From positions 186,001 to 250,000 of the forward strand of contig UBXV01000002.1 of NCBI GenBank assembly GCA_900469625.1: a stretch of 64,000 nt of DNA. The letters are read 5' to 3'. This DNA is from Hyphomicrobiales bacterium (GTDB taxonomy: Bacteria > Pseudomonadota > Alphaproteobacteria > Rhizobiales > Rhizobiaceae). A model generated the notes under the pieces. It saw only the letters and a list, made by a program, of their open reading frames with translations, searched no databases and was not told the origin of the DNA. Made by a program: the position numbers and the translations under genes. Shown here one piece after another: positions 9,954 to 55,008 of the stretch (position 1 is its first letter; each line of letters opens with the position of its first letter).

Positions 9954-9958
9954 AACCG

Positions 9959-11134: not shown

Positions 11135-11177
11135 CCGACGCACTGCAAGCATCCGCATATTCGAAAGCAACGCATAG

Positions 11178-12415: not shown

Positions 12416-12466
12416 GGAGGGCGCGTCACAACTACCGGGCTGTCGAACGTCAAGGCACTCCCACCG

Positions 12467-12495
12467 GTCATCCTCGGGCCAAGCCCGAGCATGAC
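12467..12495. repeat. Rhizobial-type intergenic palindrome, copy 1
   Basis: GTCATCCTCGGGC at 12467-12479 faces GCCCGAGCATGAC at 12483-12495. The same CTCGGG/CCCGAG core appears twice more near 62.3 kb. Such GTCAT...ATGAC palindromes are common between genes in Rhizobiales. Confidence 0.6.
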
Positions 12496-12562
12496 GGAAG
12501 AAGGGTGCGCACCCGTGACAAATAGCGATGCCCGACAAAAATGACCCCTGCTGCCGTCGTCG

Positions 12563-14600
<2,038 letters not shown>

Positions 14601-14764
14601 TGGTGAATGTCTTGAGATAGCCATCGATGAGGACGCGCCGTCAAGCGCTAATCCGGCGGTTGTGCCCTTCGCCTGTTGATCGCGCGCCAGGCCCATTGCT
14701 GTTCGCACGCTCTCTTCGCGCATCTCCTGGCGGAAAAGTGCTGCGCATATTTTCTGGAAATGCC
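14601..14764. other. Gap between thiC leader and dctD: no gene seen
   Basis: No convincing reading frame, hairpin or repeat is visible. The thiC promoter is expected here because the riboswitch begins at 14600 on the minus strand. Confidence 0.4.
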
Positions 14765-16129
14765 TTAGCGACCGGGCTTTTCGGATGCCGGGCGCTCGGC
14801 ATAGTCGGCGCGGTTGATGCCGTGCCGTTGCAGCTTGTCGTAAAAGGTCTTGCGCGGAATGCCGAGTGCCTCGATCGTCGCCTTGACGTCGCCGCGCTGC
14901 GCCCGCAGCACTTCTTTGAGAATCTCCGCCTCGTAGCGCTCCAGCCTTTCGGGCAGGGCAGCAGCGGATGTTGTCGCGCTCGCCGGCGTTTGTCCAAGCG
15001 GGCCCTCGACGCCAAGGGCGACCCGTTCGGCAAAATGCGACAGCTCGCGCACATTGCCGGGCCAGGAATGCGACATCAGGTGATGGCGCACGGCCGGAGA
15101 GACGTCGGGCACCTCGCGCTTGAAGCGCTCTGCCGCGCGCGTCAGGAAATGCGAAAAGAGCAGCGGGATATCGTCCCGGCGCTCGCGCAGCGGCGGGATC
15201 GACAGGGTGACGACGTTCAGGCGGAAATAGAGATCTTCCCGAAAGTCGCCGCGCTGCGCCGGGTCGCCGAGATCGATCTTGGCTGCGGCGATCACGCGGA
15301 TATCGACCGGGCGGACCAAATTGGTGCCGAGCGGCGTGATTTCGCGGGCTTCAAGCACGCGCAGCATCTTCACCTGCGTTGCCGGCGGCATTGCCTCTAT
15401 CTCGTCGAGGAAAAGTGTGCCGCCGCTCGCATGTTCGATACGGCCGATGCGCTTCTTCAAGGCGCCGGTAAAGGCGCCCTGCTCATGGCCGAACAGTTCG
15501 CTCTCGATCACCGTCTCCGGCAGCGCGCCGCAGTTGAGCGCGACGAAGTTGCCGTCGCGGCGCCGGCTCCAATTGTGCAGGAGCGTCGCCACCACTTCCT
15601 TGCCGCTGCCGGTCTCGCCGGCGACGAGCACATCGACGTCGGTGTCGGCGATATGCCGCAAGGTCTGGCGCAGCCGTTCCATGACCGGCGTCTGGCCGAT
15701 CAGCGGCAGGCTTTCGCCGGCCACTTCGGCTGCGCGCTTCAGCGCGCGGTTCTCCATCACCAGCCGGCGTTTTTCGAGCGCGCGCCGCGCGCTCTGTACC
15801 AGCCGGTCGGCGGCGAAGGGCTTGGGGATGAAATCGTAGACGCCGTCCTGCAGGGCCTGCACGGCCATCGGAATGTCGCCGTGGCCCGTGACCAGGATGA
15901 CGGGAAGGTCGCGGTCAAAGCCTGAGACGCGGCGAAACAATGTCAGGCCATCGATCCCCGGCATGCGAATATCGCTGATGACGATGCCGCCGAAGTCGGG
16001 ATCGAGCATGGCGAGCGCTTCCGCCGCACCGGGGAAGTCCGTGACGCCGAGGCCGGCCAGTTCGAGCGTCTGCTTCATTGCCTTGCGGAGGTCGCCGTCG
16101 TCGTCGACAAGGCATACGGATTGCTGCAT
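14765..16129 (-). CDS. dctD: C4-dicarboxylate response regulator DctD (sigma-54 activator)
   Basis: A 454-residue NtrC-type activator. The receiver domain (1-120) has the phospho-acceptor Asp53 in [13 protein letters not shown]. The AAA+ domain (about 145-380) has Walker A GETGSGKE, the sigma-54 contact motif GAFTGA and the sensor segment around [10 protein letters not shown]. The C-terminal Fis-type helix-turn-helix is [20 protein letters not shown] (about 415-434). It starts three bases after the dctB stop on the same strand, so the two form one operon. The target is the divergent dctA gene, which has tandem upstream sites and a textbook -24/-12 promoter. Confidence 0.95.
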
Positions 16130-16132
16130 CGC

Positions 16133-17986
16133 TCAGGCCCTCTTCAGTCGCACGGTGAAGACGGTGCCCTCAGGGCCCGTCTCGACGGCAATGTCGCCGC
16201 CGTAGTCGACGACAATTTCCTTGGAGATCGCAAGGCCGAGGCCGAGCCCCTGTTCCTTCGAGGTGTTGAACGGAGTGAACAGGTCTTCAAGGATGTCGGG
16301 ACTGATGCCGGGGCCGTTGTCTGCGACCACAAGCAAGACCGTGTCGGAGGCATCGACCTCGCAACGCACCTGGATTTTCGCGTCCGGCCGATCGCCGAGT
16401 GCCTCTAGCGCATTCTGCAGCAGGTTGATCAGCACCTGTTCCAGACGGATGCGGTTGCCGTGCACGCTGAGGCCGTTCTCCGGCAGATCGACGACGATCG
16501 CGTCCATGCGGCCGGCAAAGCGGCTGCGAAGCAAAAGCTGGGCCCCTTCGATCACCTCGCGCATGGCCGTCGGCTCGGCAACGAAGCGGCCCTTGCGGGC
16601 AAAGCTGCGCAGCTCGTCGGTGATGGTGCCGACCCGCTCGGTCAGGGCTGCGATGCTTTCGAGGTTTTCGACGGCGGTTTGTTTTTGTCCACGGTCGAGG
16701 AACGTGCGGGCGTTGTCGGCATAGGCGCGGATGGTTGCAACCGGCTGGTTGATCTCGTGGGCGACGCCGGCCGCCACCTGGCCGAGGATCGCCAGCCGGT
16801 TCGCTTGGACCAGTTCCTGCTGCACGGCCTGCAATTTTTCGCCGGTGCGCCGGTGGTCGGCGATCTCGGTTTCGAGATGATCGCGGGCGAGGCTCAGATC
16901 CTGCGTGCGCTCGGTCACCCGTCGCTCCAGTTCGTCGCGCGCGGCGCGTTCCTTGTTGGCAGCCAACATCGACGACTGACGGCGGCGAAGCAGAAAGGCG
17001 CCAAGCGCCAGAAGCGGCACAAGGGCGGCCAGCGCCAGCAACCGCGCTTCACGGCTCGCCGCGCTCAGGGCGTCGTCGAGCGGAGCGAGTTGCTCCAGGC
17101 GCCAACTGGTCGAGGGAACCATGGTCTCGACCCTCAGGAACTGCTTCTCGCTGCTCCCGGGCAGGAGCGCCGTCAGCATGCTCGAGCCGTCGCTGGTCGG
17201 CTCGATCCGCCGGAACGGCAGGGGCAGCAGCGAGGCGTCGCCGAACTGCAAGCTGTTGCGGATGGCGGCAAGACGGTCGGCCGGAATGTTGCGGGTGGTC
17301 ATGAACCGCCAGGAGGGGAAGCTGGTGATGAGCACGATGCCACGCCGGTCGGTGACATAGACAGGCTTGCCGGAAGCGAGCCAGTCGGCCTCGACCCCGT
17401 CGAATTCGAGCTTTGCGACGACGACGCCGATCGGGCCGGCGGGCCCGTCGACCCGTCTCGAAATGTAAAGGCCCGGCCTTTTGCTGACGTTGCCCATGGC
17501 GAAATGTTCGGCCTTGCCGTCGCGCATCGCCATGCGGAAATATTCGCGGAAGGCATAATCGTTGCCGACGAAACTGGTGGGCTCGCGCCAATTGCTGGCC
17601 GCAACCGCCACGCCGTCAAGACCGATCGCGTAGATCACCGCCGCGTTGGTATTTTCGGCCAGCGCCTCGAGCTTCTGGTCGAGGCGCTGCAGCGACGGCG
17701 CGGCCCCTTTTTCGAGCGCGGCCTTCACCTCGACGTCGTCGGCCAGAACCAGCGGCAGGGCGCGCTGGCGCTCCAGCACAGCCCGCAGCAGCGAAGCCTT
17801 GAGATTGGCGTCGATGCGGCTCTGGATATCGACCGCCGCCAACGCCTTGTTTCGTCCATACTCGCCGGCGACAAAGAGACCGGCGCTGAGCAGCGCCACC
17901 GCGACCACGGCGAAAATCAGCCAGGAACGGCGCATATTCCGGTCGAGATCTCCGGCTTTCAATGGGGCAGAGGCAGGCATTGTCAT
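16133..17986 (-). CDS. dctB: C4-dicarboxylate sensor histidine kinase DctB
   Basis: A 617-residue membrane kinase. One transmembrane helix is near residues 20-42 and a second near 300-320. Between them is a periplasmic sensor domain of the dCache type that binds C4-dicarboxylates. A coiled-coil linker leads to the HisKA box ([20 protein letters not shown]) and the HATPase domain ([10 protein letters not shown], then [10 protein letters not shown] and [12 protein letters not shown]). I chose the ATG at 17984-17986. Longer frames reach 18046 but would put the two DctD-type sites inside the coding region, and 617 residues is close to known DctB lengths. It forms an operon with dctD and is divergent from dctA. 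Confidence 0.92.
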
Positions 17987-17993
17987 GGCGGAA

Positions 17994-18050
17994 TTGTGCA
18001 TTATTCCGCTCATATTTCCATATGCGTTGTGCGGATATCCGCTCAAATTT
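17994..18050 (+). promoter_or_regulatory. Tandem DctD-type upstream activator sites
   Basis: Two 24-base direct repeats at 17994-18017 and 18027-18050 match at 18 of 24 positions, share TTGTGC, CCGCTCA and ATTT, and are offset by 33 bases, about three helical turns. The second contains the palindrome GCGGATATCCGC (18031-18042). Their place upstream of the sigma-54 promoter matches the paired DctD sites known for rhizobial dctA. Confidence 0.8.
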
Positions 18051-18120
18051 TCGTGTGTCCGAACCAGCCATCAATAAAATAGACCGATATTTCAATGGCA
18101 TGATGGTGCGCGCCACGATC

Positions 18121-18136
18121 TGGCACGCCCATTGCA
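18121..18136 (+). promoter_or_regulatory. Sigma-54 (-24/-12) promoter of dctA
   Basis: TGGCACGCCCATTGCA is a perfect match to TGGCACG-N4-TTGCW. Transcription should start near 18148, leaving a leader of about 80 bases before the dctA ATG. Confidence 0.93.
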
Positions 18137-18229
18137 AATGACGTCCTCATGACAGCCCGAGCTGTCGCGCTTCTGAAAATGGCCCGGGAGGCCCGGCACG
18201 ACGCCGGACTGGGCTTAGTGGAGGATATC

Positions 18230-19555
18230 ATGATTATCGACCAATCCGCGGAACCGCGCGGCAAGACACCCTTCTATCGTCATCTCTATGTCCAGGTCCT
18301 GGCGGCGATCGCAGCGGGCATCCTGCTCGGCCATTTCTACCCCGAGATCGGCACGCAGCTGAAGCCGCTTGGCGACGCCTTCATCCGGCTGGTGAAGATG
18401 ATCATCGCGCCCGTCATCTTCCTGACGGTTGCCACCGGCATTGCCGGCATGACCGATCTTGCCAAGGTCGGTCGGGTCGCCGGCAAGGCGATGATCTACT
18501 TTCTGACGTTCTCGACGCTGGCCCTCATCATCGGCCTTATCGTCGCCAATGTGGTGCAGCCGGGTGCAGGCATGCACATCGATCCCGCCTCGCTCGACGT
18601 CAAGGCGGTCACGTCCTACGCCGACAAGGCGCATGAGCAGTCGATCACCGGCTTCCTGATGAACATCATACCGACGACGCTCGTCGGCGCGTTCGCCGAA
18701 GGCGACATCCTGCAGGTGCTGTTCATCTCCGTCCTGTTCGGCCTGGCGCTTGCCATGGTCGGCAAGAAGGCTGAGCCGGTCGTCGACTTCCTGCATGCGC
18801 TGACGCTGCCGATCTTCAAGCTGGTCGCGATCCTGATGAAGGCGGCGCCGATCGGCGCCTTCGGCGCCATGGCGTTCACCATCGGCAAGTACGGCGTCGG
18901 CTCGATCGCCAATCTGGCGATGCTGATCGGCACGTTCTACGTCACCTCGCTGCTCTTCGTCTTCGTCGTGCTCGGCGCGGTCGCCCGTTACAACGGCTTC
19001 TCGATCGTCGCGCTCCTGCGCTACATCAAGGAGGAACTGCTGCTGGTTCTCGGCACGTCGTCCTCGGAAGCGGCGCTTCCGGGTCTGATGAGCAAGATGG
19101 AGAAGGCCGGCTGCAAGCGCTCGGTCGTCGGCCTGGTGATTCCGACCGGTTATTCATTCAACCTCGACGGCACCAACATCTACATGACGCTCGCCGCGCT
19201 CTTCATTGCCCAGGCGACCGACATTCCGCTGTCGCTCGGTGATCAGGTGCTGCTGCTGCTGGTGGCGATGCTGAGCTCCAAGGGCGCTGCCGGCATCACC
19301 GGCGCGGGCTTCATCACGCTTGCCGCTACGCTTTCGGTTGTGCCGGCGGTGCCGGTCGCCGGCATGGCGCTGATCCTCGGCATCGACCGCTTCATGTCGG
19401 AATGCCGGGCGCTGACCAATTTCGTCGGCAATGCGGTTGCGACCATCGTCGTCGCAAAATGGGAAGGCGAACTGGACGAGGCCCAGCTTGCCGCGACCCT
19501 TGGTGGTCGGGCGCTGCCGGAAAGCCCGGTGCAGGGCCTGCAGCCCGCCGAATAG
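18230..19555 (+). CDS. dctA: C4-dicarboxylate:cation symporter DctA
   Basis: A 441-residue DAACS-family carrier for succinate, malate and fumarate, the main carbon supply to rhizobia inside nodules. About eight membrane helices and two re-entrant loops are expected. Signature segments are visible: the serine-rich loop [13 protein letters not shown] (about 279-291), [16 protein letters not shown] (about 305-320), the loop around [14 protein letters not shown] and [20 protein letters not shown] near the end. ATG 18230 follows GTGGAGG; the upstream frame to 18149 overlaps the transcription start and is not coding. It is controlled by DctB/DctD through the sites at 17994-18136, and a terminator follows. 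Confidence 0.97.
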
Positions 19556-42832: not shown

Positions 42833-43768
42833 CTAGATCCCGTGCAGGACCTGCGTCGCCTTGACGGCCGCCGAGGCGCGGTTTTCGACGCCGAGCTTCA
42901 CATAGATCTGTTCCAGATGCTTGGTGACGGTACGGGCGCTGAGGCCGAGGATCTCGCCGATATCGCGGTTCGATTTTCCCTTGGCGATCCAGAGCAAAAC
43001 CTCCGATTCGCGCTGGGTCAGCGAAAAATGCTGCCTGAGCATGCCGTCGTCGCTGCGCCCGCTGTCGGCCGTCAAGCGGAAGAGATACTCATTTGCGCCG
43101 ATCGCGCCGAGAAACGAAACCTGCAGGCCCGACGGTCGCGGTCCTTCCAGGGTAAAGCTCGCCTCCCGCGCGCCGCGTGCCCCGGTCGTCTCCATCCAGT
43201 GGGCGATACGCCGCGCGATCGTCGCCAGCCCGTCGTCGCTGCCGGTTGCGGCATTGACGAGGCGGGTCGCCTGCGGCGTCGACCAGCGAATGCCGCCGTC
43301 GGCGCGCACGGCAAGCAGGTGCCGCCCGGCCGCATCGAGTGCGACATGGGCGCTCTGCGCGGAGCGGGCGTTGGACAGGTGAACGCGAATGCGTGCCCGC
43401 AATTCGTCGATATTGATCGGCTTCGTCAGATAGTCGACGCCGCCGGCTTCGAGCGCGCGAACCACATGCTCGGTTTCCGTCAGCCCGGTCATGAACAGCA
43501 CTGGCGTCTGCCCGACGGCGGCGTTGGCTTTCAGGCTCAGGCAGGTTTCAAACCCGTCCATTCCCGGCATGACCGCATCCAAGAGGATGACGTCGGGCGT
43601 GATCCGCTCTGCAATCGAAAGCGCCGCGTTGCCCGAGGTGGCGATCAGGACGGAGAAGCCGGACTGTTCCAGTGCCTCGGTCAGAAAGCCGAGCGCTTCG
43701 GGCGAATCGTCGACCAGAAGCACAATGTCGCGACGATCGTAGGTCTCAACCACGGGGAGCGGCTCCAT
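42833..43768 (-). CDS. Response regulator with receiver and LuxR-type DNA-binding domains
   Basis: A 311-residue protein. The N-terminal receiver (about 14-130) has acidic Asp20-Asp21 and the phospho-acceptor Asp64 in VILLDAVMPGMDG, and Lys in YLTKPINIDEL. A middle region of about 110 residues links to a C-terminal LuxR-type helix-turn-helix (LTQRESEVLLWIAKGKSNRD, then IGEILGLSARTVTKHLEQIY). Its start lies inside the end of the permease-kinase gene, overlapping by 23 bases, so the two are translationally coupled and very likely a two-component pair. Their setting beside urtABCDE suggests control of urea or purine nitrogen use. Confidence 0.88.
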   Translation of the reverse strand: MEPLPVVETYDRRDIVLLVDDSPEALGFLTEALEQSGFSVLIATSGNAALSIAERITPDVILLDAVMPGMDGFETCLSLKANAAVGQTPVLFMTGLTETEHVVRALEAGGVDYLTKPINIDELRARIRVHLSNARSAQSAHVALDAAGRHLLAVRADGGIRWSTPQATRLVNAATGSDDGLATIARRIAHWMETTGARGAREASFTLEGPRPSGLQVSFLGAIGANEYLFRLTADSGRSDDGMLRQHFSLTQRESEVLLWIAKGKSNRDIGEILGLSARTVTKHLEQIYVKLGVENRASAAVKATQVLHGI

Positions 43769-46700
43769 TGGTCGTTGTCTGCTTCAGGAAGGCGTCGTAG
43801 CCGGCGAGGTCGAAGGCCTGGACGTAGTTGCGGGCCGCCGCCACGAAGGGCTGATGTTGCGGTTCCAGCGCGATTTCGGCGAGCTTGGCCTCGATACCTC
43901 TGACGTAGCCGATCTCGCCGAGCCGGATCAGCTCCTCGACATGGTGCCCGTCGGGCAGCGGCATGGTGTCGGCACGGATCGATGCCGGCTCCTCGCGCGC
44001 TTCGTCTTCATGGATCCAGGTGAGCCCGAGCTGTACCGCGAGCTTGTCTGCGAGTTGGCCGACGCCGAAGGGCTTGGCCAACGTGTCGTTGTGACCGGCA
44101 TAGGCGCTGGTCCCCGAACCGTCGCCAATATTGGCCGACAGCATGATGATCGGTGCCATCTGGCCGTCCCGACGCAATCTGTCGACGAGCTCCCAGCCGT
44201 TCATGTCGGGCATGGAGATGTCGATGAGGAAGATGTCGGGAGCAAGGGTTTCGAGCATCTCGAGACAATGGCTGCCGCTTTCGGCCGCAAGCACGGTGAA
44301 GTCCATGGGGCTGAGAATTTCGTGCATCAGGTTGCGATGGTCGGCGTTGTCGTCGACGACCATGATCGTGCGGCGCGGGCCGGGATAGGAGGTGACCCGG
44401 CGCAGGGCGGCAGGGGGTGCCGGCCGGTCGACGGCCGACAGCATCAGGCGTACCCGGAATGCCGTGCCCGTGCCCGGCTGACTGGTCACGGATACTTCGC
44501 CGCCGAGCGTTTGCGTCAGCAGCCGGGTGATGGTCAGGCCGAGGCCGAGGCCTGGCATGCTGCCGAGGTGCTCCGCTTCGCCGCGCTGGAACGGATCAAA
44601 GATGCGCGGGAGATCCTTCTCGGCGATGCCGCGACCGGTGTCGGCGATGGTAAATGTCGCAACCTGGCTGCGATAATCGACGTCGAACCGGATCTCTCCG
44701 CGCTCCGTAAATTTCAGGGCGTTGGAGAGCAGGTTGACGAGGATCTGGCGCAGGCGCTTTTCGTCGGATTTGACGTAGCGCGGCAGGCTGGACGCCCGAC
44801 GATGCAGGAAGGCGATGCCCTTTGCCTGTGCCTGCGGACGGAACATCTCGACCACCTGGTCGAGGAAGTCGAAAATGTTGATCTCGTTGGAATAAACCTG
44901 CAGCTTGCCGGCCTCGATCTTCGAGATGTCGAGCAGTCCATCGATGAGGCCGGAAAGATGGTCGGCACTGCGCTTGATGACCTTGATGGCGCCCTGGCGC
45001 GCAGGCGGGATCGTGTCATCGCGCTCGAGCACCTGGGCGTAGCCGAGCACGGCGTTGAGCGGCGTGCGCAGTTCGTGGCTGAGGCCAACGACATAGCGGC
45101 TCTTGGCGCGGTTGGCCGCCTCCGCGGTCTCCTTGGCCTGCTGCAGGGCGGCATCGGTCTTCTTGTGCGCGGCGATTTCCTTCAGGAGCAGGGTGTTCTG
45201 CCGCGACGATTCTTCTTCCGCGACGACCCGGCTATCGTGGGCGAGCACGTAGAACCAGCAGACGATGCCGGCGAGCACGGCAAAGACGAAGAAGACAACG
45301 GCAATGGTTCGCTCGACGACGGCAGCCGTCTCCGGCGACGCGTTGCCGGTCTGGTGCGCGATCATCGCCAGGATGAGGCCGATACCCGCGATCGAGAGCA
45401 TGGCCGAGATGGCGTAGCGGCCGAGCCGTGTCGAGAGTTTCGCCGTTATCGCTTCTGGAAGCAGCGTGTGGGCGACCGTTGCGATCTGTGCGTTGAAGCG
45501 AGCCTTCGGCTTGCACATGTCGTGGCAGCGGCTGTCGAGCGAACAGCAAAGTGAACAGATCGGTGCCGCATAGGCCGGGCACCAGGCCATGTCCTCCGGC
45601 TCGAACGGGTGTTCGCAGATCGAGCAGGTGATCTCGCTCTGGGCGGCCCAGCTTCTTCTCGGCTTGCGGGCGAGGTAATATTTGCCGCCCGTTGCCCAGG
45701 CGATCAGTGGCGATGCGACGAAAGCGATGACGAGGGCGATATAGGGCGCAAGCGAAGCGGCGATGGTGCCGAAGGCCCCGAAATGGGCCGCCAGCGCGAT
45801 CGTTGCCGAAAGCGCCATGGCGCCGAGGCCGACCGGATTGATGTCGTAGAGATGAGCGCGCTTGAACTCGATGCCCGGAGGCGACAGGCCGAGCGGCTTG
45901 TTGACGAAGAGGTCGGCCGAAATCGTGCAAAGCCAGGCCATGGCGATGATCGAGAACACGCCAAGTGTCTCCTCGAGCAGGCGGTAGATGCCGAGTTCCA
46001 TCAACAGCAGCGCGATCGCCACGTTGAACACCAGCCAGACGACGCGGCCGGGATGGCTATGGGTCAGGCGCGAGAAGAAGTTGGACCAGGCCAGCGACCC
46101 GGCATAGGCGTTCATCACGTTGATCTTCAGCTGCGAGACGACGACGAAGGCGACCATCATCATGAGGGCTGCGGTGTCTGACGGGACCATGTAGCCGAAG
46201 GCCGTGTAGTACATCTGCGCCGGGTCTGCTGCGCGCGTCGAGGGAATGCCGGAGGAGAGTGCCAGCACGACGAGAAAAGAGCCGGCCAGCAGCTTCGGCG
46301 CCCCGACCAGCACCCAGCCGGAGCCGGCCAGGAAGACGGCAGCGCGATGATGCAGCTTGCGCTGGCCGTCTGGCGGCAGGAAGCGAAGGAAGTCGACCTG
46401 TTCGCCGATCTGCGCCATCAGCGCGAAGATCACCGCTGAAGCTGCGCCGAACTCTATCAAATCGAAGGGAGCGAGCGTGCCCGGCGGGCCGGAGGCGTGG
46501 TGGATTCCGGAATAGGCAAGCCAGATGCCGACCTTCTCCCAATCGGCAAAGGCGATGAAGACGAAGGGCAGGATATTGAGCACGATCCAGAACGGCTGGG
46601 TGATCAGTTGAAACTTGCTGATCAGACGTACGCCATGGGTGACGAGCGGGATGACGACGACGGCGCTGACGATGTAGCCGATCCAGAGCGGCATGCCGAG

Positions 46701-47132
46701 CGCCAGCTCGAGCGCCCCTGACATGATCGAAGCCTCGATTGCAAACAGGATGAAGGTGAAGCTGGCATAGATCAGCGACGTCAGCGTCGAGCCGATATAG
46801 CCGAAGCTGGCGCCGCGCGTCAGAAGGTCGATGTCGACGCCATGGCGTATGGCGTAGCGGCTGATCGGCAGCCCGACCGTCAGGATCATCAGGCTGGCGA
46901 TCAGAATGGCAACGATGGCGTTGGTCGTGCCGTAGGACATGGTGATCGCGCCACCGATGGCTTCGAGCGCCAGAAACGAGATCGCCCCGATTGCTGTCTG
47001 CGAGATGCGCTCGGAGGAGAAGCGCCGCGCGCTTTTGGCGGTGAAGCGCAGGGCATAGTCTTCAAGCGTCTGGTCGGCGACCCAGCGGTTGTATTCGCGT
47101 CGAACGGGAATGATGCGCTGGCGTGCCGCCAT
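43746..47132 (-). CDS. NCS1-type permease fused to a hybrid histidine kinase
   Basis: A 1128-residue fusion. Residues about 1-495 are an integral membrane transporter of the NCS1 (purine/cytosine/allantoin) type with about 12 helices (SYGTTNAIVAILIASLMILT and GVDIDLLTRGASFGYIGSTL are typical). Residues about 502-540 hold a Cys-rich segment (CSICEHPFEPEDMAWC, CSLCCSLDSRCHDMC) that could bind zinc or a cluster. Two more helices lie near 575-640. The kinase follows: His686 in GLSHELRTPLNAVLGYAQVL, HATPase about 790-910, and a receiver with Asp971 (IFLIDISMPDMNG). A tail of about 80 residues ends the chain. It overlaps the LuxR-type regulator by 23 bases. A role as a transporter-sensor is inference. 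Confidence 0.88.
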   Translation of the reverse strand: MAARQRIIPVRREYNRWVADQTLEDYALRFTAKSARRFSSERISQTAIGAISFLALEAIGGAITMSYGTTNAIVAILIASLMILTVGLPISRYAIRHGVDIDLLTRGASFGYIGSTLTSLIYASFTFILFAIEASIMSGALELALGMPLWIGYIVSAVVVIPLVTHGVRLISKFQLITQPFWIVLNILPFVFIAFADWEKVGIWLAYSGIHHASGPPGTLAPFDLIEFGAASAVIFALMAQIGEQVDFLRFLPPDGQRKLHHRAAVFLAGSGWVLVGAPKLLAGSFLVVLALSSGIPSTRAADPAQMYYTAFGYMVPSDTAALMMMVAFVVVSQLKINVMNAYAGSLAWSNFFSRLTHSHPGRVVWLVFNVAIALLLMELGIYRLLEETLGVFSIIAMAWLCTISADLFVNKPLGLSPPGIEFKRAHLYDINPVGLGAMALSATIALAAHFGAFGTIAASLAPYIALVIAFVASPLIAWATGGKYYLARKPRRSWAAQSEITCSICEHPFEPEDMAWCPAYAAPICSLCCSLDSRCHDMCKPKARFNAQIATVAHTLLPEAITAKLSTRLGRYAISAMLSIAGIGLILAMIAHQTGNASPETAAVVERTIAVVFFVFAVLAGIVCWFYVLAHDSRVVAEEESSRQNTLLLKEIAAHKKTDAALQQAKETAEAANRAKSRYVVGLSHELRTPLNAVLGYAQVLERDDTIPPARQGAIKVIKRSADHLSGLIDGLLDISKIEAGKLQVYSNEINIFDFLDQVVEMFRPQAQAKGIAFLHRRASSLPRYVKSDEKRLRQILVNLLSNALKFTERGEIRFDVDYRSQVATFTIADTGRGIAEKDLPRIFDPFQRGEAEHLGSMPGLGLGLTITRLLTQTLGGEVSVTSQPGTGTAFRVRLMLSAVDRPAPPAALRRVTSYPGPRRTIMVVDDNADHRNLMHEILSPMDFTVLAAESGSHCLEMLETLAPDIFLIDISMPDMNGWELVDRLRRDGQMAPIIMLSANIGDGSGTSAYAGHNDTLAKPFGVGQLADKLAVQLGLTWIHEDEAREEPASIRADTMPLPDGHHVEELIRLGEIGYVRGIEAKLAEIALEPQHQPFVAAARNYVQAFDLAGYDAFLKQTTTNGAAPRG

Positions 47133-47245: not shown

Positions 47246-47677
47246 TCAGCCGCTGACAGTCGTCGTGTCGACGACGACAAAATCGTGGGTGATCGTCGCG
47301 GACTTGGCGAGCATCGCCGACGCTGAGCAGTATTTTTCGAGCGAGAGGGCGACCGCGCGCTCGACCTTCTTCTCCGAGAGGCCGCGGCCCTTCACGACGA
47401 AATGCATATGAATTCGGGTAAAGACCTTGGGGTCTTCCTCGGCGCGATCGGCATCGAGTTCCACGGAGCAATCCTCGACCGGCTCGCGGCCCTTTTCGAG
47501 AATATGCACCACGTCGTAGGCCGAGCAGCCGCCGGCGCCGATCAGCATCAGTTCCATCGGGCTCGGGCCGGGCGTCTTGCCTTCCGGGCCGGAGGCTGTT
47601 CCCAGAACGATCTTGTGACCGCTGCCGGATTCGCCGACGAATGTCCGCTCTTCAACCCACTTGATACGTGCCTTCAT
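47246..47677 (-). CDS. OsmC-family protein
   Basis: A 143-residue protein of the OsmC/Ohr superfamily, YhfA-like branch. The two family cysteines are present: Cys51 in GAGGCSAYDVVHIL and Cys117 in LEKYCSASAML, spaced as in thiol peroxidases of this fold. It could reduce organic peroxides as a cytoplasmic dimer. It is 113 bases upstream of the permease-kinase on the same strand and divergent from urtA. Nothing links it directly to urea use. Confidence 0.85.
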   Translation of the reverse strand: MKARIKWVEERTFVGESGSGHKIVLGTASGPEGKTPGPSPMELMLIGAGGCSAYDVVHILEKGREPVEDCSVELDADRAEEDPKVFTRIHMHFVVKGRGLSEKKVERAVALSLEKYCSASAMLAKSATITHDFVVVDTTTVSG

Positions 47678-47941
47678 GATCTCTCACCTGTCTCGATATC
47701 CCTGTCGCGGCCGATTGGCCGTCGAAGACCCTCAATAGCCGGAAACAGCATCGCGCGGCCAGTCCGGCGCGCGGATTTCGATGCCATCAGTCATGGCGCC
47801 TTGGGTGCTTCCACTTTGCCCCCTCGGCCTACGTAGAATGACGTATGTGCAGTGCAACAGGACTGGCGGATGATCCCTCAAGCAACGGTCAAAAGGAACG
47901 ACGCCTCGTTGCGGCGACCAGAACGAGAGGGGTTCAATCAG
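47678..47941. other. Divergent region between osmC-like gene and urtA
   Basis: No gene is seen here. The urtA promoter should lie in this region. I searched by eye for a sigma-54 promoter, as expected for nitrogen control, and found no good match. Confidence 0.35.
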
Positions 47942-49234
47942 ATGAATATCAGGGCACGCATCACCGGCGCATTCCTGGCAACGGTCCTGTCGACCACGGC
48001 CTTCAATGGCGCCTTTGCCGCCGACGACACGATCAAGGTCGGCATTCTGCATTCGCTTTCGGGCACCATGGCGATTTCCGAGACGACGCTCAAGGACGCC
48101 ATGCTGATGCTCATCGACGAGCAGAACAAGAAGGGCGGCCTGCTCGGCAAGAAGCTCGAAGCCGTCGTCGTCGATCCCGCCTCCGACTGGCCGCTGTTTG
48201 CCGAAAAGGCACGCGAGCTCGTTTCCGTCGACAAGGTCTCGGCCGTGTTCGGCTGCTGGACGTCGGTGTCGCGCAAATCCGTCCTGCCTGTTTTCGAGGA
48301 GCTGAATTCGATCCTCTTCTACCCGGTGCAGTATGAGGGCGAGGAAAGCCAGCGCAACGTCTTCTACACCGGTGCCGCGCCGAACCAGCAGGCCGTTCCG
48401 GCGGTCGACTACCTGATGGAAAACGAAAGCGTTGAGCGCTGGGTGCTGGCCGGCACCGACTATGTCTATCCGCGCACGACCAACAAGATCCTCGAAGCTT
48501 ATCTGATCTCCAAGGGCGTGAAGCCCGAAGACATCATGATCAACTACACGCCGTTCGGCCATTCCGACTGGCAGACGATCGTCTCCGACATCAAGAAGTT
48601 CGGCTCGGCCGGCAAGAAGACGGCCGTCGTCTCGACCATCAACGGCGACGCCAACGTGCCGTTCTACAAGGAACTGGCAAACCAGGGCGTCAAGGCTGAG
48701 GATATCCCGGTTGTCGCCTTCTCCGTCGGCGAAGAGGAACTCGCCGGTCTCGACACGACGCCGCTCGTCGGCCACCTCGCTGCGTGGAACTACTTCCAGT
48801 CGGTCGACACGCCTGCCAATGCCGAGTTCATCAAGACCTGGAAGGCCTATACCAAAAACGACAAGCGCGTCACCAACGACCCGATGGAAGCCCATTACAT
48901 TGGCTTCAACATGTGGCTGAAGGCTGTCGAAAAGGCCGGAACGACCGACACCGACGCCGTGCTCGACGCGATGATCGGCGTTTCGGTTCCCAATCTTTCC
49001 GGCGGCTATTCGACGATGATGCCGAACCACCACATCACCAAGCCGGTGCTGATCGGCGAGATCCAGAGCGATGGCCAGTTCGAGACGGTTTGGGAAACGC
49101 CCGGTCTCGTCGTTGGCGACGAATGGTCAGATTATCTGCCCGATTCCAAGGACCTGATCGCCGATTGGCGCGCGCCGATGTCCTGCGGCAATTTCAATGT
49201 TGCCACCGGCAAGTGCGGCGGTAAGGGCTCCTGA
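47942..49234 (+). CDS. urtA: Urea ABC transporter, periplasmic binding protein
   Basis: A 430-residue secreted binding protein of the amide/urea class. Signal peptide 1-26 (MNIRARITGAFLATVLSTTA, cleavage after AFA), then the mature start DDTIKVGILHSLSGTMAISE, diagnostic for UrtA, and further conserved segments AVFGCWTSVSRKSVLPVFEE and LFYPVQYEGEESQRNVFYTG. The C-terminal SGGYSTMMPNHHITKPVLIG is also typical. ATG 47942 is the sensible start because it begins the signal peptide. It heads urtABCDE. Confidence 0.95.
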   Translation: MNIRARITGAFLATVLSTTAFNGAFAADDTIKVGILHSLSGTMAISETTLKDAMLMLIDEQNKKGGLLGKKLEAVVVDPASDWPLFAEKARELVSVDKVSAVFGCWTSVSRKSVLPVFEELNSILFYPVQYEGEESQRNVFYTGAAPNQQAVPAVDYLMENESVERWVLAGTDYVYPRTTNKILEAYLISKGVKPEDIMINYTPFGHSDWQTIVSDIKKFGSAGKKTAVVSTINGDANVPFYKELANQGVKAEDIPVVAFSVGEEELAGLDTTPLVGHLAAWNYFQSVDTPANAEFIKTWKAYTKNDKRVTNDPMEAHYIGFNMWLKAVEKAGTTDTDAVLDAMIGVSVPNLSGGYSTMMPNHHITKPVLIGEIQSDGQFETVWETPGLVVGDEWSDYLPDSKDLIADWRAPMSCGNFNVATGKCGGKGS

Positions 49235-49421
49235 TTTCATCACCTAGGGATAGTGCCGGATCGAGAGGCCAACCCCTCGTTCCGCTTTGCATAACGAAAC
49301 CATAGGCAGGCATGCTCTTCGCCCGACGCTCCCGTCGGGCGAAGGGATAACGAATTCCAAGCCGCCACGACGGCGCCTCCTTGCGCTTGCCGCAGGCGCG
49401 CCAGATCCAAGCGAGAGGGCG

Positions 49422-51038
49422 ATGTACCGCATTCTGCAAACCCTGTTGATCACCCTTTGCCTGCTGGTGTCAGTCCATGTCACCGGCCTGCGCGCAGCGG
49501 ACGATCTCGCAGCCCTGGTTGCCACGCTCGGGACGGCCAAACTGTCCGAGCTCGACGACCGCATCGACGCGCTTGCCAGGAGCGGCGATGCGCGGGTCAT
49601 CCCGGTGCTCGAAGCGCTTGGCGAAGGCAATCTTTACACCCGCAAGGCCGACGGCAGCGTCTTTCTCACCACGGAAAAGGGCGCGAGCCTCGTTCTCCTC
49701 GACCCGTTGAGCGGCGCCGAGATCGGCGAGGCTGCCAAGGGCGACATCCAGAAGATCAAGGTCAACAATTCAGTCCGTCGCGCGGTTCGAAGCGCGCTCA
49801 GCGGGCTTACGCTTTTCAGCACGGATACGAGTGCAAGATTGAAGGCAGCGCAATCCATGCGCCAGACGCCGAATGCCGACGCGCTCGAAGCGATCGAGAC
49901 GGCGCTCGCCGCCGAAAAGGATGCCACGGTGCGCAAGACCCTCGACGAGGCGCGCGCCGTCACACTTCTCATCTCCGACCGCTCCGACGACGACAAGCGC
50001 GCCGCGATCAAGACCCTGGCCGAAAGCGGCGGCCGCGAGGCTCTCGGCGTGCTGACATCGGCGCTGTCTTCGGCGGATGCCAGCCTGAAACCCGATATCG
50101 AAGCGGCGCTGCAGCAGATCGAGCAGGCGCAGGTCTTCTGGAACGCCGGCCAGAACGTCTGGTACGGGCTTTCGCTCGGCTCGGTGCTGTTGCTTGCGGC
50201 GATCGGCCTTGCCATCACCTTCGGCGTCATGGGCATCATCAACATGGCGCACGGCGAGATGGTGATGCTCGGCGCCTATACGACGTTCATCGTCCAGGAC
50301 GTCATCCGTACGTCCTATCCGGTGCTGTTCGACTGGTCGCTGGCGATCGCTCTGCCGCTCGCCTTTCTCGTCACAGGGATCATCGGCCTTGCCATCGAGC
50401 GCAGCGTCATCCGCTTTCTCTATGGCCGCCCGCTCGAAACGCTGCTCGCTACCTGGGGCATTTCCTTGATCCTGCAGCAGTCGGTCCGCTCCATCTTCGG
50501 GCCGACCAACCGCGAGGTCGGCAATCCCTCCTGGATGGCCGGCGCCTTCGAGCTCGGCGGTCTGACGATCACCTGGAACAGGATGTGGATCATCGTCTTT
50601 GCGCTGGCCGTCTTCGCTGCGCTTCTGTTCCTGCTCAAAAGAACATCGATGGGCCTCAAGATGCGCGCCGTCACGCAGAACCGCCGCATGGCGTCGTCCA
50701 TGGGCATTCGCACGCCCTTGGTCGATGCGCTGACCTTTGCGCTCGGCTCGGGGATTGCCGGCATGGCCGGCGTGGCGCTGTCGCAGATCGACAATGTCTC
50801 GCCCAATCTCGGCCAGGGCTACATCATCGACAGCTTCATGGTCGTCGTCTTCGGCGGCGTCGGCAATCTCTGGGGCACGCTGGTCGGTGCATTTTCGCTG
50901 GGCATCCTCAATAAGTTCCTCGAACCCTATGCCGGCGCCGTTCTCGGCAAGATCCTGGTCCTCGTGCTCATCATCCTCTTCATCCAGAAGAAGCCGCGTG
51001 GGCTCTTCGCGCTAAAGGGAAGGGCGGTGGAAGCATGA
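49422..51038 (+). CDS. urtB: Urea ABC transporter, permease UrtB
   Basis: A 538-residue protein. After a signal sequence (MYRILQTLLITLCLLVSVHV), residues about 25-235 form a soluble, probably periplasmic, helical region. The permease proper (about 240-535) resembles LivH with GVMGIINMAHGEMVMLGAYT and VVVFGGVGNLWGTLVGAFSL. The long N-terminal extension is usual in proteobacterial UrtB. ATG 49422 follows GAGAGGG, and an upstream in-frame ATG at 49287 lacks a signal peptide. The stop overlaps the urtC start by four bases. Confidence 0.92.
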   Translation: MYRILQTLLITLCLLVSVHVTGLRAADDLAALVATLGTAKLSELDDRIDALARSGDARVIPVLEALGEGNLYTRKADGSVFLTTEKGASLVLLDPLSGAEIGEAAKGDIQKIKVNNSVRRAVRSALSGLTLFSTDTSARLKAAQSMRQTPNADALEAIETALAAEKDATVRKTLDEARAVTLLISDRSDDDKRAAIKTLAESGGREALGVLTSALSSADASLKPDIEAALQQIEQAQVFWNAGQNVWYGLSLGSVLLLAAIGLAITFGVMGIINMAHGEMVMLGAYTTFIVQDVIRTSYPVLFDWSLAIALPLAFLVTGIIGLAIERSVIRFLYGRPLETLLATWGISLILQQSVRSIFGPTNREVGNPSWMAGAFELGGLTITWNRMWIIVFALAVFAALLFLLKRTSMGLKMRAVTQNRRMASSMGIRTPLVDALTFALGSGIAGMAGVALSQIDNVSPNLGQGYIIDSFMVVVFGGVGNLWGTLVGAFSLGILNKFLEPYAGAVLGKILVLVLIILFIQKKPRGLFALKGRAVEA

Positions 51039-52186
51039 TCACCTCGTTTCTGTTCAAGAATCTCGACCGCGGTATCATCGTCGTCGTTGCCATCCTGCTC
51101 GGCCTCGCGGTCGCCATTCCCGCGCTCAATCTGCTGACGGCGCCGGATCATCCGTTCCACGTGCCCACCTATCTGGTCTCGCTGTTTGGCAAGTACCTGA
51201 CCTACGCCCTCCTGGCGCTGGCGCTCGATCTCGTCTGGGGCTTCTGCGGCATCCTCTCGCTCGGCCATGCCGCCTTCTTCGCGCTCGGCGGCTATGCCAT
51301 GGGCATGTACCTGATGCGCCAGATCGGCGCGCGCGGCTCCTATGGCAATCCCTTGCTGCCGGACTTCATGGTGTTCCTCAACTGGAAGGAATTGCCCTGG
51401 TTCTGGCAGGGCTTCGACATGTTCTGGTTTGCGGCGCTGATGGTGGTGCTGGTGCCGGGTCTGCTCGCCTTCGTCTTCGGCTGGTTCGCCTTTCGCTCAC
51501 GCGTCAACGGCGTCTACCTCTCGATCATCACCCAGGCGATGACCTATGCGCTGCTGCTCGCCTTCTTCCGCAACGACATGGGTTTCGGCGGCAACAACGG
51601 CCTGACGGATTTCAAGGATATCCTCGGCTTCAACATCCAGGCCCAAACGACGCGGGCTGCCCTTTTTGCCGCCTCAGCCGTCACGCTCGCCTCGTGCCTG
51701 GTGCTGACGACGGCGATCGTGCGCTCGAAATACGGCAAGGTGCTGGTTGCAGTGCGCGACGCCGAAAGCCGCACGCGGTTCCTCGGCTACCGCGTCGAGC
51801 ATATCAAGCTCTTTGCCTTCACCGTCTCGGCGATGATGGCGGGCATTGCCGGCGCGCTCTACGTGCCGCAGGTCGGCATCATCAATCCCGGCGAGTTCGA
51901 GCCCGGCAACTCCATCGAGGTCGTCATCTGGACGGCCGTGGGCGGACGCGGCACGCTGATCGGCCCGATCGTCGGCGCCATCCTCGTCAACGGCGGCAAG
52001 AGCATCTTCACCGCCGCCTTCCCGGAATTCTGGCTGTTTGCGCTCGGCGGGCTCTTTGTCTTCGTCACGCTGTTCTTGCCCAAGGGCGTGGTCGGCACCG
52101 TCAGCGCCTATCTCGCCCGCCGCAAGGCGCAAGGCCGGGCGGCGGATGCCGACAAACTTGTCGCCGAACCCATGGCGGCGGAGTGA
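51035..52186 (+). CDS. urtC: Urea ABC transporter, permease UrtC
   Basis: A 383-residue LivM-type permease with about ten helices. Diagnostic segments are LDLVWGFCGILSLGHAAFFA, LGGYAMGMYLMR and GVYLSIITQAMTYALLLAFF. The EAA-like loop is RDAESRTRFLGYRVEHIKLF, and VVIWTAVGGRGTLIGPIVGA follows. Together with UrtB it forms the membrane channel for urea. It overlaps urtB by four bases (ATGA) and ends five bases before urtD. Confidence 0.93.
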   Translation: MITSFLFKNLDRGIIVVVAILLGLAVAIPALNLLTAPDHPFHVPTYLVSLFGKYLTYALLALALDLVWGFCGILSLGHAAFFALGGYAMGMYLMRQIGARGSYGNPLLPDFMVFLNWKELPWFWQGFDMFWFAALMVVLVPGLLAFVFGWFAFRSRVNGVYLSIITQAMTYALLLAFFRNDMGFGGNNGLTDFKDILGFNIQAQTTRAALFAASAVTLASCLVLTTAIVRSKYGKVLVAVRDAESRTRFLGYRVEHIKLFAFTVSAMMAGIAGALYVPQVGIINPGEFEPGNSIEVVIWTAVGGRGTLIGPIVGAILVNGGKSIFTAAFPEFWLFALGGLFVFVTLFLPKGVVGTVSAYLARRKAQGRAADADKLVAEPMAAE

Positions 52187-52191
52187 TAGCG

Positions 52192-52956
52192 ATGAACCAG
52201 ACGATCAGCCAGACCAAGCCGAAAAGCCTTCTCTATCTCGATGGCGTCTCCGTTTCCTTCGACGGGTTCAAGGCGCTCAATTCACTCTCCTTCGTGATCG
52301 AGCCGGGCGAACTGCGCGCCATCATCGGCCCGAACGGCGCCGGCAAGACGACGATGATGGACATCATCACGGGCAAGACACGGCCGGACGAGGGCCAGGT
52401 TTTCTTCAAGGGCGATATCGACCTCACGCAGCGGGACGAGGCAGAGATCGCCAATCTCGGCATCGGCCGCAAATTCCAGAAGCCGACGGTGTTTGAAAGC
52501 CATACCATCTGGGACAATCTGGAACTGGCGCTCAATCGTCGTCGTGGCGTCTTCCCGACGCTCTTCTACCGGCTGACGGCGGACGACAGGGCGCGCATCG
52601 AGGAGATCCTGTCGACCGTGCGCCTGAGCGCACGCCGCGACGATCTTGCCGCCAACCTCTCGCACGGCCAGAAGCAATGGCTGGAGATCGGCATGCTGCT
52701 CGCGCAGGAACCGGAACTGCTTCTGGTGGACGAACCGGTGGCCGGCATGACCGATGCGGAGACCGCCGAAACGGCAGTCCTGCTGAAGGAGATCGCACGG
52801 ACGCGCTCGGTGGTCGTCGTCGAACACGATATGGGCTTCATCCGCGAGCTTGGCGTCAAGGTCACCTGCCTTGCTGAAGGTTCGGTGCTTGCCGAAGGCT
52901 CGATCGATTTCGTCAGCAGCGATGCCAAGGTGATCGAAAACTATCTCGGCCGCTGA
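52192..52956 (+). CDS. urtD: Urea ABC transporter, ATPase UrtD
   Basis: A 254-residue ATPase of the branched-chain amino acid class. Walker A is GPNGAGKTTMMD (about 44-55), the Q-loop region is RKFQKPTVFESHTIWDNLEL, the signature reads LSHGQKQWLEIGMLLAQEPE and Walker B is LLLVDEPVAGMTDAE. The H-loop is VVVEHDMGFIRELG. LSHGQ in place of LSGGQ is usual for UrtD. ATG 52192 is the only sensible start after the urtC stop. Confidence 0.94.
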   Translation: MNQTISQTKPKSLLYLDGVSVSFDGFKALNSLSFVIEPGELRAIIGPNGAGKTTMMDIITGKTRPDEGQVFFKGDIDLTQRDEAEIANLGIGRKFQKPTVFESHTIWDNLELALNRRRGVFPTLFYRLTADDRARIEEILSTVRLSARRDDLAANLSHGQKQWLEIGMLLAQEPELLLVDEPVAGMTDAETAETAVLLKEIARTRSVVVVEHDMGFIRELGVKVTCLAEGSVLAEGSIDFVSSDAKVIENYLGR

Positions 52957-52996: not shown

Positions 52997-53692
52997 ATGC
53001 TGAGCGTCGAAAACGTCAATCTTCACTATGGCGCCGCGCAGGCGCTGCGCAACGTCTCGATCGAAGCGCCGATGGGCAAGATTACCTGTGTGCTCGGCCG
53101 CAACGGCGTCGGCAAGTCGAGCCTGCTGCGCGCCATCACCGGGCAACATCCGGTCAGTGCCGGCGCGATCGCCTTCAATGGCGTGCCCCTCAGTGGCATG
53201 GCACCCTATCGCCGCGCCCGGGAAGGCGTCGGCTATGTGCCGCAGGGGCGCGAGATCTTTCCCCTGCTGAGCGTCAAAGAGAATCTCGAAACCGGCTACG
53301 CCCCGGTCAAGCGCGCCGACCGCTCGATCCCGGAGGATGTCTTCAACCTGTTTCCGGTGCTGCGCACGATGCTCGGGCGGCGCGGCGGCGATCTTTCCGG
53401 CGGCCAGCAGCAGCAACTGGCGATCGGCCGGGCGCTCGTCACACGTCCGCGCATCCTTGTGCTCGACGAACCGACCGAAGGCATCCAGCCATCGATCATC
53501 AAGGATATCGGTCGCGCGATCCGCTATCTCCGGGATTCAACCGGGATGGCGATCCTGCTGGTGGAACAGTATCTCGACTTCTGCCGCGAGCTTGCCGATC
53601 ACGTCTACATCATGGACCGCGGCGCCGTGGTGCACCAGGGGCCGCCGGAAACGCTGGACACAGTCGAGGCCCGGCGCCATCTCACGGTCTAG
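52997..53692 (+). CDS. urtE: Urea ABC transporter, ATPase UrtE
   Basis: A 231-residue LivF-type ATPase. Walker A is LGRNGVGKSSLLRAI (about 34-48), the signature is LSGGQQQQLAIGRALVTRPR and Walker B is ILVLDEPTEGIQPSIIKDIG, where EGIQPS is diagnostic for UrtE. It is the last gene of urtABCDE. No urease or accessory genes follow in this window, so urea breakdown must be encoded elsewhere. Confidence 0.94.
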   Translation: MLSVENVNLHYGAAQALRNVSIEAPMGKITCVLGRNGVGKSSLLRAITGQHPVSAGAIAFNGVPLSGMAPYRRAREGVGYVPQGREIFPLLSVKENLETGYAPVKRADRSIPEDVFNLFPVLRTMLGRRGGDLSGGQQQQLAIGRALVTRPRILVLDEPTEGIQPSIIKDIGRAIRYLRDSTGMAILLVEQYLDFCRELADHVYIMDRGAVVHQGPPETLDTVEARRHLTV

Positions 53693-53754: not shown

Positions 53755-55008
53755 CTAGCCGCCATATTCGATGATCGCGAGCCCTGCATTGTAGTCGGTC
53801 GCATAGATGATGCCGGCTGCATCGACGAAGACGTCGGCCGACTGGATGACGCGTGGGCGCCCGGCGCGCCGGTCGGTCATTTCGCTCGGTCCGGCCGGAA
53901 CGAGCGCTCCGGTCTCGCGCGGGCGATAGGGGTCGGTGATATCGAAAGCGCGGATGCCGGCATTCTGCCAGGTGGCGAAGATCAATGTCTCCGAGACGAA
54001 AGAGCCCGGGCGATTTTCGTGCAGGTTGTGCGGACCGAAATGGCCGCCCTTGGCGACGTAGTCGGCTTCCGCGGGGATCGGGAAGGTCGAGATGCTGACC
54101 GGGTTCGACGGTTCGCGGATGTCGAAGATCCAGGTGTGCTTGCGGCCGTCCTCCTCATGATCGAGCACCGCCTCGTCGGCAACGACAAGCAGGTCGCGAC
54201 CGGGCAGCGGCAGAGGCGAGTGCGTTCCGCCGCCGAAGGGTGGCGACCAGTTGCGGTGGGCGATCAGCTTCGGGTTGGCATGATCCTTGATGTCGAGAAG
54301 TGTGAGGCCGCCGTCGCGCCAGCAGGCATAGGCCGTGTCCCCTGAAACCAGCGCATGGTGCAAAGCGTAGCGCTTGCCATCCGGTGCCGTCGATGTCTCG
54401 CCAGCCGCCTTGTTCATGCCCGGCAGCCACCAGCGGCCGACGATCTCGGGCCGGGTCGGATCGGCCATGTCGATGGTGACGAAGATATAGTCGGTAAAGC
54501 CGTCGAACAGCGCCGAGGCATAGGCGTAGCGGCCGCCGACATACCAGAGGCGGTGGAAGCCGACGCCGTCGATATTCAGCTCGCCGATCTTGCGCGGGCG
54601 GTCGGGAACGGAAATATCGAAAACCGACATGCCGGCGCTCCAGGCGCGCTTGCGGCCGCTGCCGGCAACGGTGTCGCCGACGGACTTGGTGTAATAGGTC
54701 TTCTCGTCGGCGAAGGTCTCGACATCCGCAAACAGATCGAGCGCATTGATGACCAGCAGCAGGTCGTCATGGGTCTGGAGATGGATGTTCCAGGTGTTGG
54801 CCGGTGCCGGCACGTAGGTCACCGCACCTGGTCTCTTCGGGTCGCGCACGTCGACGATCGAAAACCCTTGCGACCAGGGATGGGCGACATAGGCAAAGCC
54901 GCGGTGCACCATCAGTTGCAGACCGTCGCCGCGACCGCCGATCGGCGAATGGCCGATCAGCTTCATGTTGCTGGTGAAATCGGGCGCGGGAAGGTCGATG
55001 CCGGTCAT
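53755..55008 (-). CDS. LVIVD-repeat beta-propeller protein
   Basis: A 417-residue protein without signal peptide. It has repeated blades with the pattern 'h-x-h-h-D-h-x-D-P-x-x-P': FSIVDVRDPKRPGAV, SVFDISVPDRPRKIG, FVTIDMADPTRPEIV, LTLLDIKDHANPKLI, WIFDIREPSNPVSIS and RAFDITDPYRPRETG. The propeller is of the LVIVD type. Conserved histidines (GVGFHRLW, HHALVSG, GPHNLHENRPG) hint at a metal or ligand site. The role is unknown; related proteins are often next to transporters or oxidoreductases. It is convergent with urtE and separated from the ABC operon behind it by a strong terminator, with the same orientation. Confidence 0.8.
   Translation of the reverse strand: MTGIDLPAPDFTSNMKLIGHSPIGGRGDGLQLMVHRGFAYVAHPWSQGFSIVDVRDPKRPGAVTYVPAPANTWNIHLQTHDDLLLVINALDLFADVETFADEKTYYTKSVGDTVAGSGRKRAWSAGMSVFDISVPDRPRKIGELNIDGVGFHRLWYVGGRYAYASALFDGFTDYIFVTIDMADPTRPEIVGRWWLPGMNKAAGETSTAPDGKRYALHHALVSGDTAYACWRDGGLTLLDIKDHANPKLIAHRNWSPPFGGGTHSPLPLPGRDLLVVADEAVLDHEEDGRKHTWIFDIREPSNPVSISTFPIPAEADYVAKGGHFGPHNLHENRPGSFVSETLIFATWQNAGIRAFDITDPYRPRETGALVPAGPSEMTDRRAGRPRVIQSADVFVDAAGIIYATDYNAGLAIIEYGG

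Follow-up and report, generated by a model that had tools for sequence, protein, structure and literature searches.

What does a protein sense that carries a permease-like half in front of a histidine kinase, and which genes does it control? We addressed this for a fusion of 1128 amino acids encoded on the minus strand at 43746-47132 of the window, the 64,000-nucleotide stretch of DNA analyzed here. We think it likely that this protein is a urea-sensing NCS1 transceptor kinase, a two-component sensor controlling the neighboring urtABCDE genes. Genes for urea or formamide uptake adjoin the fusion in many bacteria, and most likely it turns them on in response to urea or a small amide. The reading frame, Pfam, homologues and hydropathy bear out the domain order of the original prediction: an NCS1-like permease domain (residues about 19-490, 45663-47078, placed by hhalign) is followed by a cysteine cluster (residues 503-540, 45513-45626, placed by cysteine conservation), two extra transmembrane helices (residues about 570-632, 45237-45425, from family-averaged hydropathy), the HisKA and HATPase_c domains (44439-45104) and a receiver (44040-44366), all on the minus strand. 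HisKA (residues 677-742), HATPase (790-898) and receiver (923-1031) score above the Pfam cut-offs, and His686 and Asp971 are found where they had been claimed. The mean hydropathy of 75 relatives agrees with 12 helices in residues 1-475, in line with the predicted number, if the long peak at 119-168 is counted as two, and locates the two extra helices at about 575-590 and 610-626.

The fusion gene shares 23 bp (43746-43768), the predicted overlap, with the gene of a LuxR-type response regulator of 311 amino acids on the same strand (42833-43768). By Pfam, this regulator consists of a receiver and a GerE/LuxR domain, with Asp64 at the expected position. HisKA, HATPase_c and receiver domains together with the adjoining regulator gene (all by Pfam) mark the fusion as a hybrid kinase. 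Judged from tblastn ends at 145 loci, the two genes overlap at 73; a gap of 0-60 bp separates them at 66 and a longer one at 6. Upstream of the kinase gene are an OsmC-family gene (47246-47677, minus strand, PF02566) and then the divergent, plus-strand urtABCDE operon, complete as predicted: urtA for the substrate-binding protein (47942-49234, TIGR03407 at 572 bits), the urtB frame (49287-51038, its last ~290 codons covered by TIGR03409), urtC (51035-52186, TIGR03408), the urtD frame (51694-52956, its last 242 codons covered by TIGR03411) and urtE (52997-53692, TIGR03410). All five subunits score above the cut-offs of the urea-transporter models TIGR03407-03411. The urtA frame is open from a GTG at 47852, and its start is most likely the ATG at 47942. 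Convergent to urtE lies a gene for an LVIVD-repeat protein (53755-55008) that is 97% identical in locus L009. The genome measures 6.5 Mb and has its urease on another contig. The best match among those listed, where records near the window's own genome may be missing, is from Sinorhizobium sp. A49 (92% identical). Sinorhizobium meliloti 2011 has a homologue on pSymB with 88.7% identity across residues 1-645.

The permease label depends on profile methods, since residues 1-500 have no Pfam match at E up to 10 (the gathering score of PF02133 is not reached) and no NCBIfam match at E up to 0.01. PDB sequence searches with residues 1-500 or 1-645 returned nothing convincing, and an AlphaFold model built on 38 Rhizobiaceae rows reached a pLDDT of 48.6. 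In hhalign comparisons, the fusion family aligns with seven NCS1 proteins at 98.1% (E 8.9e-14) over 354 columns, covering residues 21-407, vs 0.3% for a reversed control, 21-22% over ~30 columns for two block-shuffled controls and 22.9% over 123 columns for a Na:Ala symporter. The predicted NCS1 assignment thus holds at the level of profile comparison and not as a Pfam match. Against seven standalone, kinase-less permeases the fusion family aligns at 99.9% over 436 columns (residues 19-486), where block-shuffled controls also give as much as 78-95% (30-68 columns). The standalone permease of locus L131 aligns with residues 23-492 and itself passes PF02133; those of L138 and L140, whose best match is to residues 23-185, score 85 and 81 bits with PF02133, and L138 also matches the cytosine permease 7qoa. 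NCS1 permeases, of which Mhp1 is one, have 12 transmembrane helices. The likeness of the fusion to this family (cytosine permease, PDB 7qoa) lies in the profile match and in the TM8 pattern N338-x-x-N341-x-Y343, which recurs in the standalones and in four of five NCS1 rows, whereas a five-residue TM6 insertion (Q-x-[GA]-E-Q, common to the 12 fused proteins and six close standalones aligned), the cysteine cluster, the kinase fusion and the urea/amide neighbors set the fusion apart. Glu57 in TM1, a glutamate in 75/75 fused proteins vs phenylalanine in six standalones, was considered as a mark of the sensor and is not pressed, because the six standalones carry an acid one residue earlier.

We surveyed homologues in overlapping samples of 289 genomes of the class and 398 of the phylum, and found matches at E<=0.001 in 20 and 63 genomes, respectively, the phylum figure taking in weak matches to other permeases. 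Neighbors were examined in 59 hand-picked genomes with the fusion, in which 64 kinases could be placed. A UrtA gene lies within 15 kb of 54 of these, and the urease gene UreC within 20 kb of 22, three of them at amide loci (G039, G167 and G413); UrtA or urease is near 58 kinases and neither is near 6, two of which (G365:C3 and G465:C2) adjoin a formamidase and an AmiS/UreI channel. Among 80 Rhizobiaceae loci, urtA is in the fetched flank of 75 and, by coordinates, 10-13 kb off in four more; the contig of the remaining locus is 7.3 kb long. The linkage to urt genes, whose absence from related genomes had been named as the refuting observation, is thus conserved.

The UrtA beside the kinase is either 66-98% or 36-42% identical to that of the window, and we classified accordingly 81 Rhizobiaceae stretches (the window plus the 80 loci) and 64 further stretches. 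FmdA and/or AmiE/AmiF are found at 39 of the 40 loci with the distant type, which we call the amide class, and the contig of the fortieth stops in urtC. At the 87 loci with the near type, the window included, no amidase is found in the fetched flanks. Eighteen loci lack UrtA in the flank; three of them have an amidase, and six lie beside urease. The 59 genomes contain 94 UrtA genes above the cut-off, 40 of them within 15 kb of UreC, and 37 of these 40 score at least 551 bits (lower in G283, G413 and G618). Amide-type UrtA proteins also pass the TIGR03407 cut-off (five of five tested), so that a TIGR03407 match alone is no proof of urea transport. Four genomes (G428, G492, G513 and G636) have two kinases, one per class; in G365 both are at amide loci, and in L193 an amide-type UrtA lies beside urease.

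A quick maximum likelihood tree (76 permease halves, rooted at the midpoint, SH-aLRT as the sole support measure, with a long-branch warning and 10 rows without class) requires five class changes, at least three of them by starred branches, which suggests repeated shifts from amide to urea, as far as such a tree can tell. At residue 402 in TM10, 44 of the 46 amide-class rows have Gly and the other 2 have Ala, whereas 23 of 29 urea-class rows have a residue other than Gly. Of 224 conserved columns, judged on 43 amide rows, no other deviates in as many urea lineages (six of seven, one of the six being split S/G over two rows). This position is a lead only as a candidate specificity switch, because one urea lineage keeps Gly and all six standalone permeases carry Val, whatever their neighbors.

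These data bear on the alternative that a short-chain amide, such as formamide or acetamide, is the ligand in the window too and that its urt genes import amides as well as urea, which we regard as unlikely. It is consistent with amide-linked kinases being more numerous in our sample than non-rhizobial urea-linked ones, with the apparent nesting of urea-linked among amide-linked kinases, and with the response of Methylophilus fmd genes to both formamide and urea stated in the accessible part of a review (PMC10781810). However, amidase genes are absent from the fetched flanks of all 81 Rhizobiaceae stretches, the UrtA of the window is of the urease-linked type, its residue 402 is unlike that of the amide class, and urease adjoins the kinase in 20 of the 80 Rhizobiaceae loci. 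UreC is also present in 11 of 65 further loci, and none of the loci with UreC has FmdA. Urea is most likely the ligand of the window's class.

In the window, a probable operator, the inverted repeat TACGTCA-N3-TACGTA (general form TACG-N8-CGTA), occupies 47830-47845 and precedes the likely urtA ATG by about 100 bp. It is the sole perfect TACGTCANNNTACGTA match in the genome; allowing up to two mismatches, 11 genome sites are found vs 53 for a reversed-pattern control, and thus the pattern is not enriched genome-wide. Scanning the 401-bp stretch around the urtA start, we found the repeat in every one of 76 Rhizobiaceae regions, against 1.8 expected, although these regions are related rather than independent. 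Of 41 amide regions, kinase-less L210 left out, 32 have it (1.2 expected, computed on 42 regions including L210). Among ten further urea-type regions, three have it, all from Rhizobiaceae (L207, L249 and L251). The other seven, divergent stretches of the urea class from outside Rhizobiaceae (six loci), all lack the repeat near urtA; it stands before the kinase gene in L159, L161 and L165 and nowhere in the stretch in L187, L200 and L201. L195 and L206, which have another gene order and are outside the seven-stretch count, have it before urtA. In seven amide loci the repeat also stands before fmdA, and in L217 it stands before a formamidase gene. Six repeats near kinase loci (L149, L150, L158, L159, L161 and L183) precede none of the genes checked. 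In four regulators (L181, L182, L185 and L186) the middle linker is shortened; the DNA-binding part is 58-70% identical to that of the window, and the repeat is kept.

The candidate operator is discriminating as well as conserved. At urt promoters distant from the kinase (1-kb stretches), the repeat was found in seven of eight genomes, the exception being the orphan G051; family f181 accounts for four of the seven and genus g37 for three, so that two lineages are represented. Among 26 control urtA copies (L279-L298, L307-L311 and L316; 21 urease-linked and 5 high-scoring), from genomes with an amide-type kinase or, in three cases, an orphan one, the repeat was found once, with poor half-sites, and four further urtA copies (L312-L315) lack it. 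Its background density is 0.047 per kb, true sites counted in. The orphan kinase of g37 has Gly402, and in two g37 genomes read out, the repeat-bearing operon is urt-fmdA-fmdB, whereas the urease-linked urtA lacks the repeat. These findings together point to a probable shared operator near urtA.

The original proposal of a transporter-sensor, or transceptor, is the best fit, and from family knowledge its steps may be pictured as follows. The N-terminal half would be an NCS1-fold permease from a branch for urea and short-chain amides, with putative transport activity. Ligand binding would alter its conformation, and the signal would pass via the cysteine cluster and the two extra helices to the kinase at His686. 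The phosphate may then reach Asp64 of the regulator, either directly or via Asp971 of the receiver. The LuxR-type regulator would bind TACG-N8-CGTA ~100 bp before urtA and probably activate, rather than repress, urtABCDE.

The cysteine cluster had been described as having about nine cysteines; there are eight (503, 506, 518, 526, 529, 530, 536 and 540), and all are kept in 81 of 81 Rhizobiaceae copies (the window and 80 loci) and in 75 of 75 fusion proteins picked from across the phylum. Among six kinase-less permeases compared, two from Acinetobacter and one from Streptomyces keep C503, C506, C526 and C529, C518 is present only in Streptomyces, and two from Arthrobacter and one from Tsukamurella keep only C503. 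Cysteines 530, 536 and 540 are confined to fused forms among the proteins compared. Given the four-cysteine pattern in some kinase-less permeases and the three cysteines seen only in fused proteins, the cluster looks like an inherited tail that was lengthened in the sensors. This modifies the prediction of an added metal- or redox-sensing element; the cluster may bind metal and lie on the cytoplasmic side.

The invariance of the eight cysteines, three of them found only in fused forms, could also mean that the cluster or the kinase senses a cytoplasmic cue (metal, redox or nitrogen state) and that the permease acts as a transporter or flux gauge. There is a precedent in CbrA, a similar transporter-kinase: according to the available part of PMC9100948, its perception of the signal does not require the transporter portion. 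We nevertheless consider this improbable. The genes that recur nearby are substrate-specific, and conservation is as high in the permease half as in the kinase half (68% vs 64% of columns at >=97% conservation). A permease-free kinase with some of the cysteines was met once, incidentally. CbrA, CrbS and RpuS belong to the SLC5/STAC sensor kinases, which likewise combine a transporter-fold membrane half with a histidine kinase; the same part of that source describes the S. fredii pair as hybrid kinases and RpuS as sharing an operon with a regulator of the LuxR family (PMC9100948). They differ from the fusion in having an SLC5 fold, STAC and PAS domains and carbon ligands in place of an NCS1 half, the cysteine cluster, two helices and urea/amides, and residues 1-500 of our protein have no match to the SLC5 (SSF) domain PF00474.

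We compared the fusion kinase to kinase-less relatives, for which seven loci were fetched; urease, formamidase or amidase adjoins the permease in three. In Acinetobacter ursingii it is the first gene of a urease cluster, in Tsukamurella it is near a zinc-ribbon gene and fmdA, and in Arthrobacter U41 it adjoins genes for an aliphatic amidase, an AAA ATPase and an acetate-CoA ligase. The other four loci (L273, L275, L276 and L278) have no urea or amide gene nearby: none is annotated for Streptomyces and Arthrobacter NicSoilB11, and UreC, FmdA and AmiE have no matches within 8 kb in the unannotated A. baumannii L276 and Arthrobacter L278. A purine or allantoin ligand, as originally suggested, is highly improbable, for although the protein is of the NCS1 family and two standalone relatives are labeled 'allantoin permease' (labels we take to be automatic), one of these heads a urease operon, the relatives are accompanied by urease, formamidase, aliphatic amidase and urt-type ABC transporters, and annotation tables, the sole source consulted for this point, list no purine or allantoin catabolism genes.

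We tentatively propose a history in which an NCS1 permease for urea/amides, by way of its lengthened cysteine tail, turned into a receptor coupled to a kinase, spread in Pseudomonadota as a regulator of amide uptake and was retuned from amide to urea several times independently, with residue 402 as a candidate switch. If true, nature would provide a series of transporters, transceptors and specificity changes acting largely through one operator. The family offers one fold both as transporter and as receptor, and for two classes of ligand, as material for studying how the one turns into the other. The proposed urea-sensing role would also assign a function, a regulon and a candidate operator to a protein that is widespread and at present labeled 'ATP-binding protein', 'response regulator', 'hybrid sensor histidine kinase/response regulator' or even 'ArcB'.

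Searches of the open literature listed no title or abstract opening that describes the fusion kinase. The amide class has the gene content of known fmd/urt operons, namely Bradyrhizobium blr0968-0973, the Pseudomonas veronii Yu15 cluster and Methylophilus fmdCABDEF (PMC3098086, PMC13209695, PMC10781810), and the available portions of these sources do not mention the kinase; the words 'histidine kinase' and 'two-component' are absent from PMC13209695, and 'two-component' from PMC10781810. In the accessible parts, one such urt operon has already been argued by SIMBAL to be for amides (PMC3098086), and formamide uptake has been suggested for the P. veronii cluster (PMC13209695). Our classes suggest that many operons labeled as urea transporters may serve amides, and offer a sequence rule for telling them apart. 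A Klebsiella plasmid (NZ_CP124699.1, locus L209) has an operon with formamidase and amide-type UrtA at 8909-18381; it is the one read out of 342 Klebsiella plasmid records that match the permease half. PMC13060141, in its available part, discusses a 'urea transport system' (UrtABC/AmiF) of lineage CG307, which may thus serve amides.

Several variants were observed besides. In L131 (3944-7160), an open reading frame with a carbon-nitrogen hydrolase domain comes after the standalone NCS1 permease. Two fusions without receiver (L203, 8302-10956; L204, 8366-11047) adjoin FmdA and an AmiS/UreI channel and carry a different kinase core, so the sensor module has been joined to a second kinase type. 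L143 (2357-4210) encodes a 618-residue kinase without permease, with a few cysteines, hydrophobic segments and a receiver, next to a regulator-like open reading frame. Finally, the urea-class fusions of L190, L205 and L206 have frames of 1267-1365 amino acids, with added sequence near residues 490-500.
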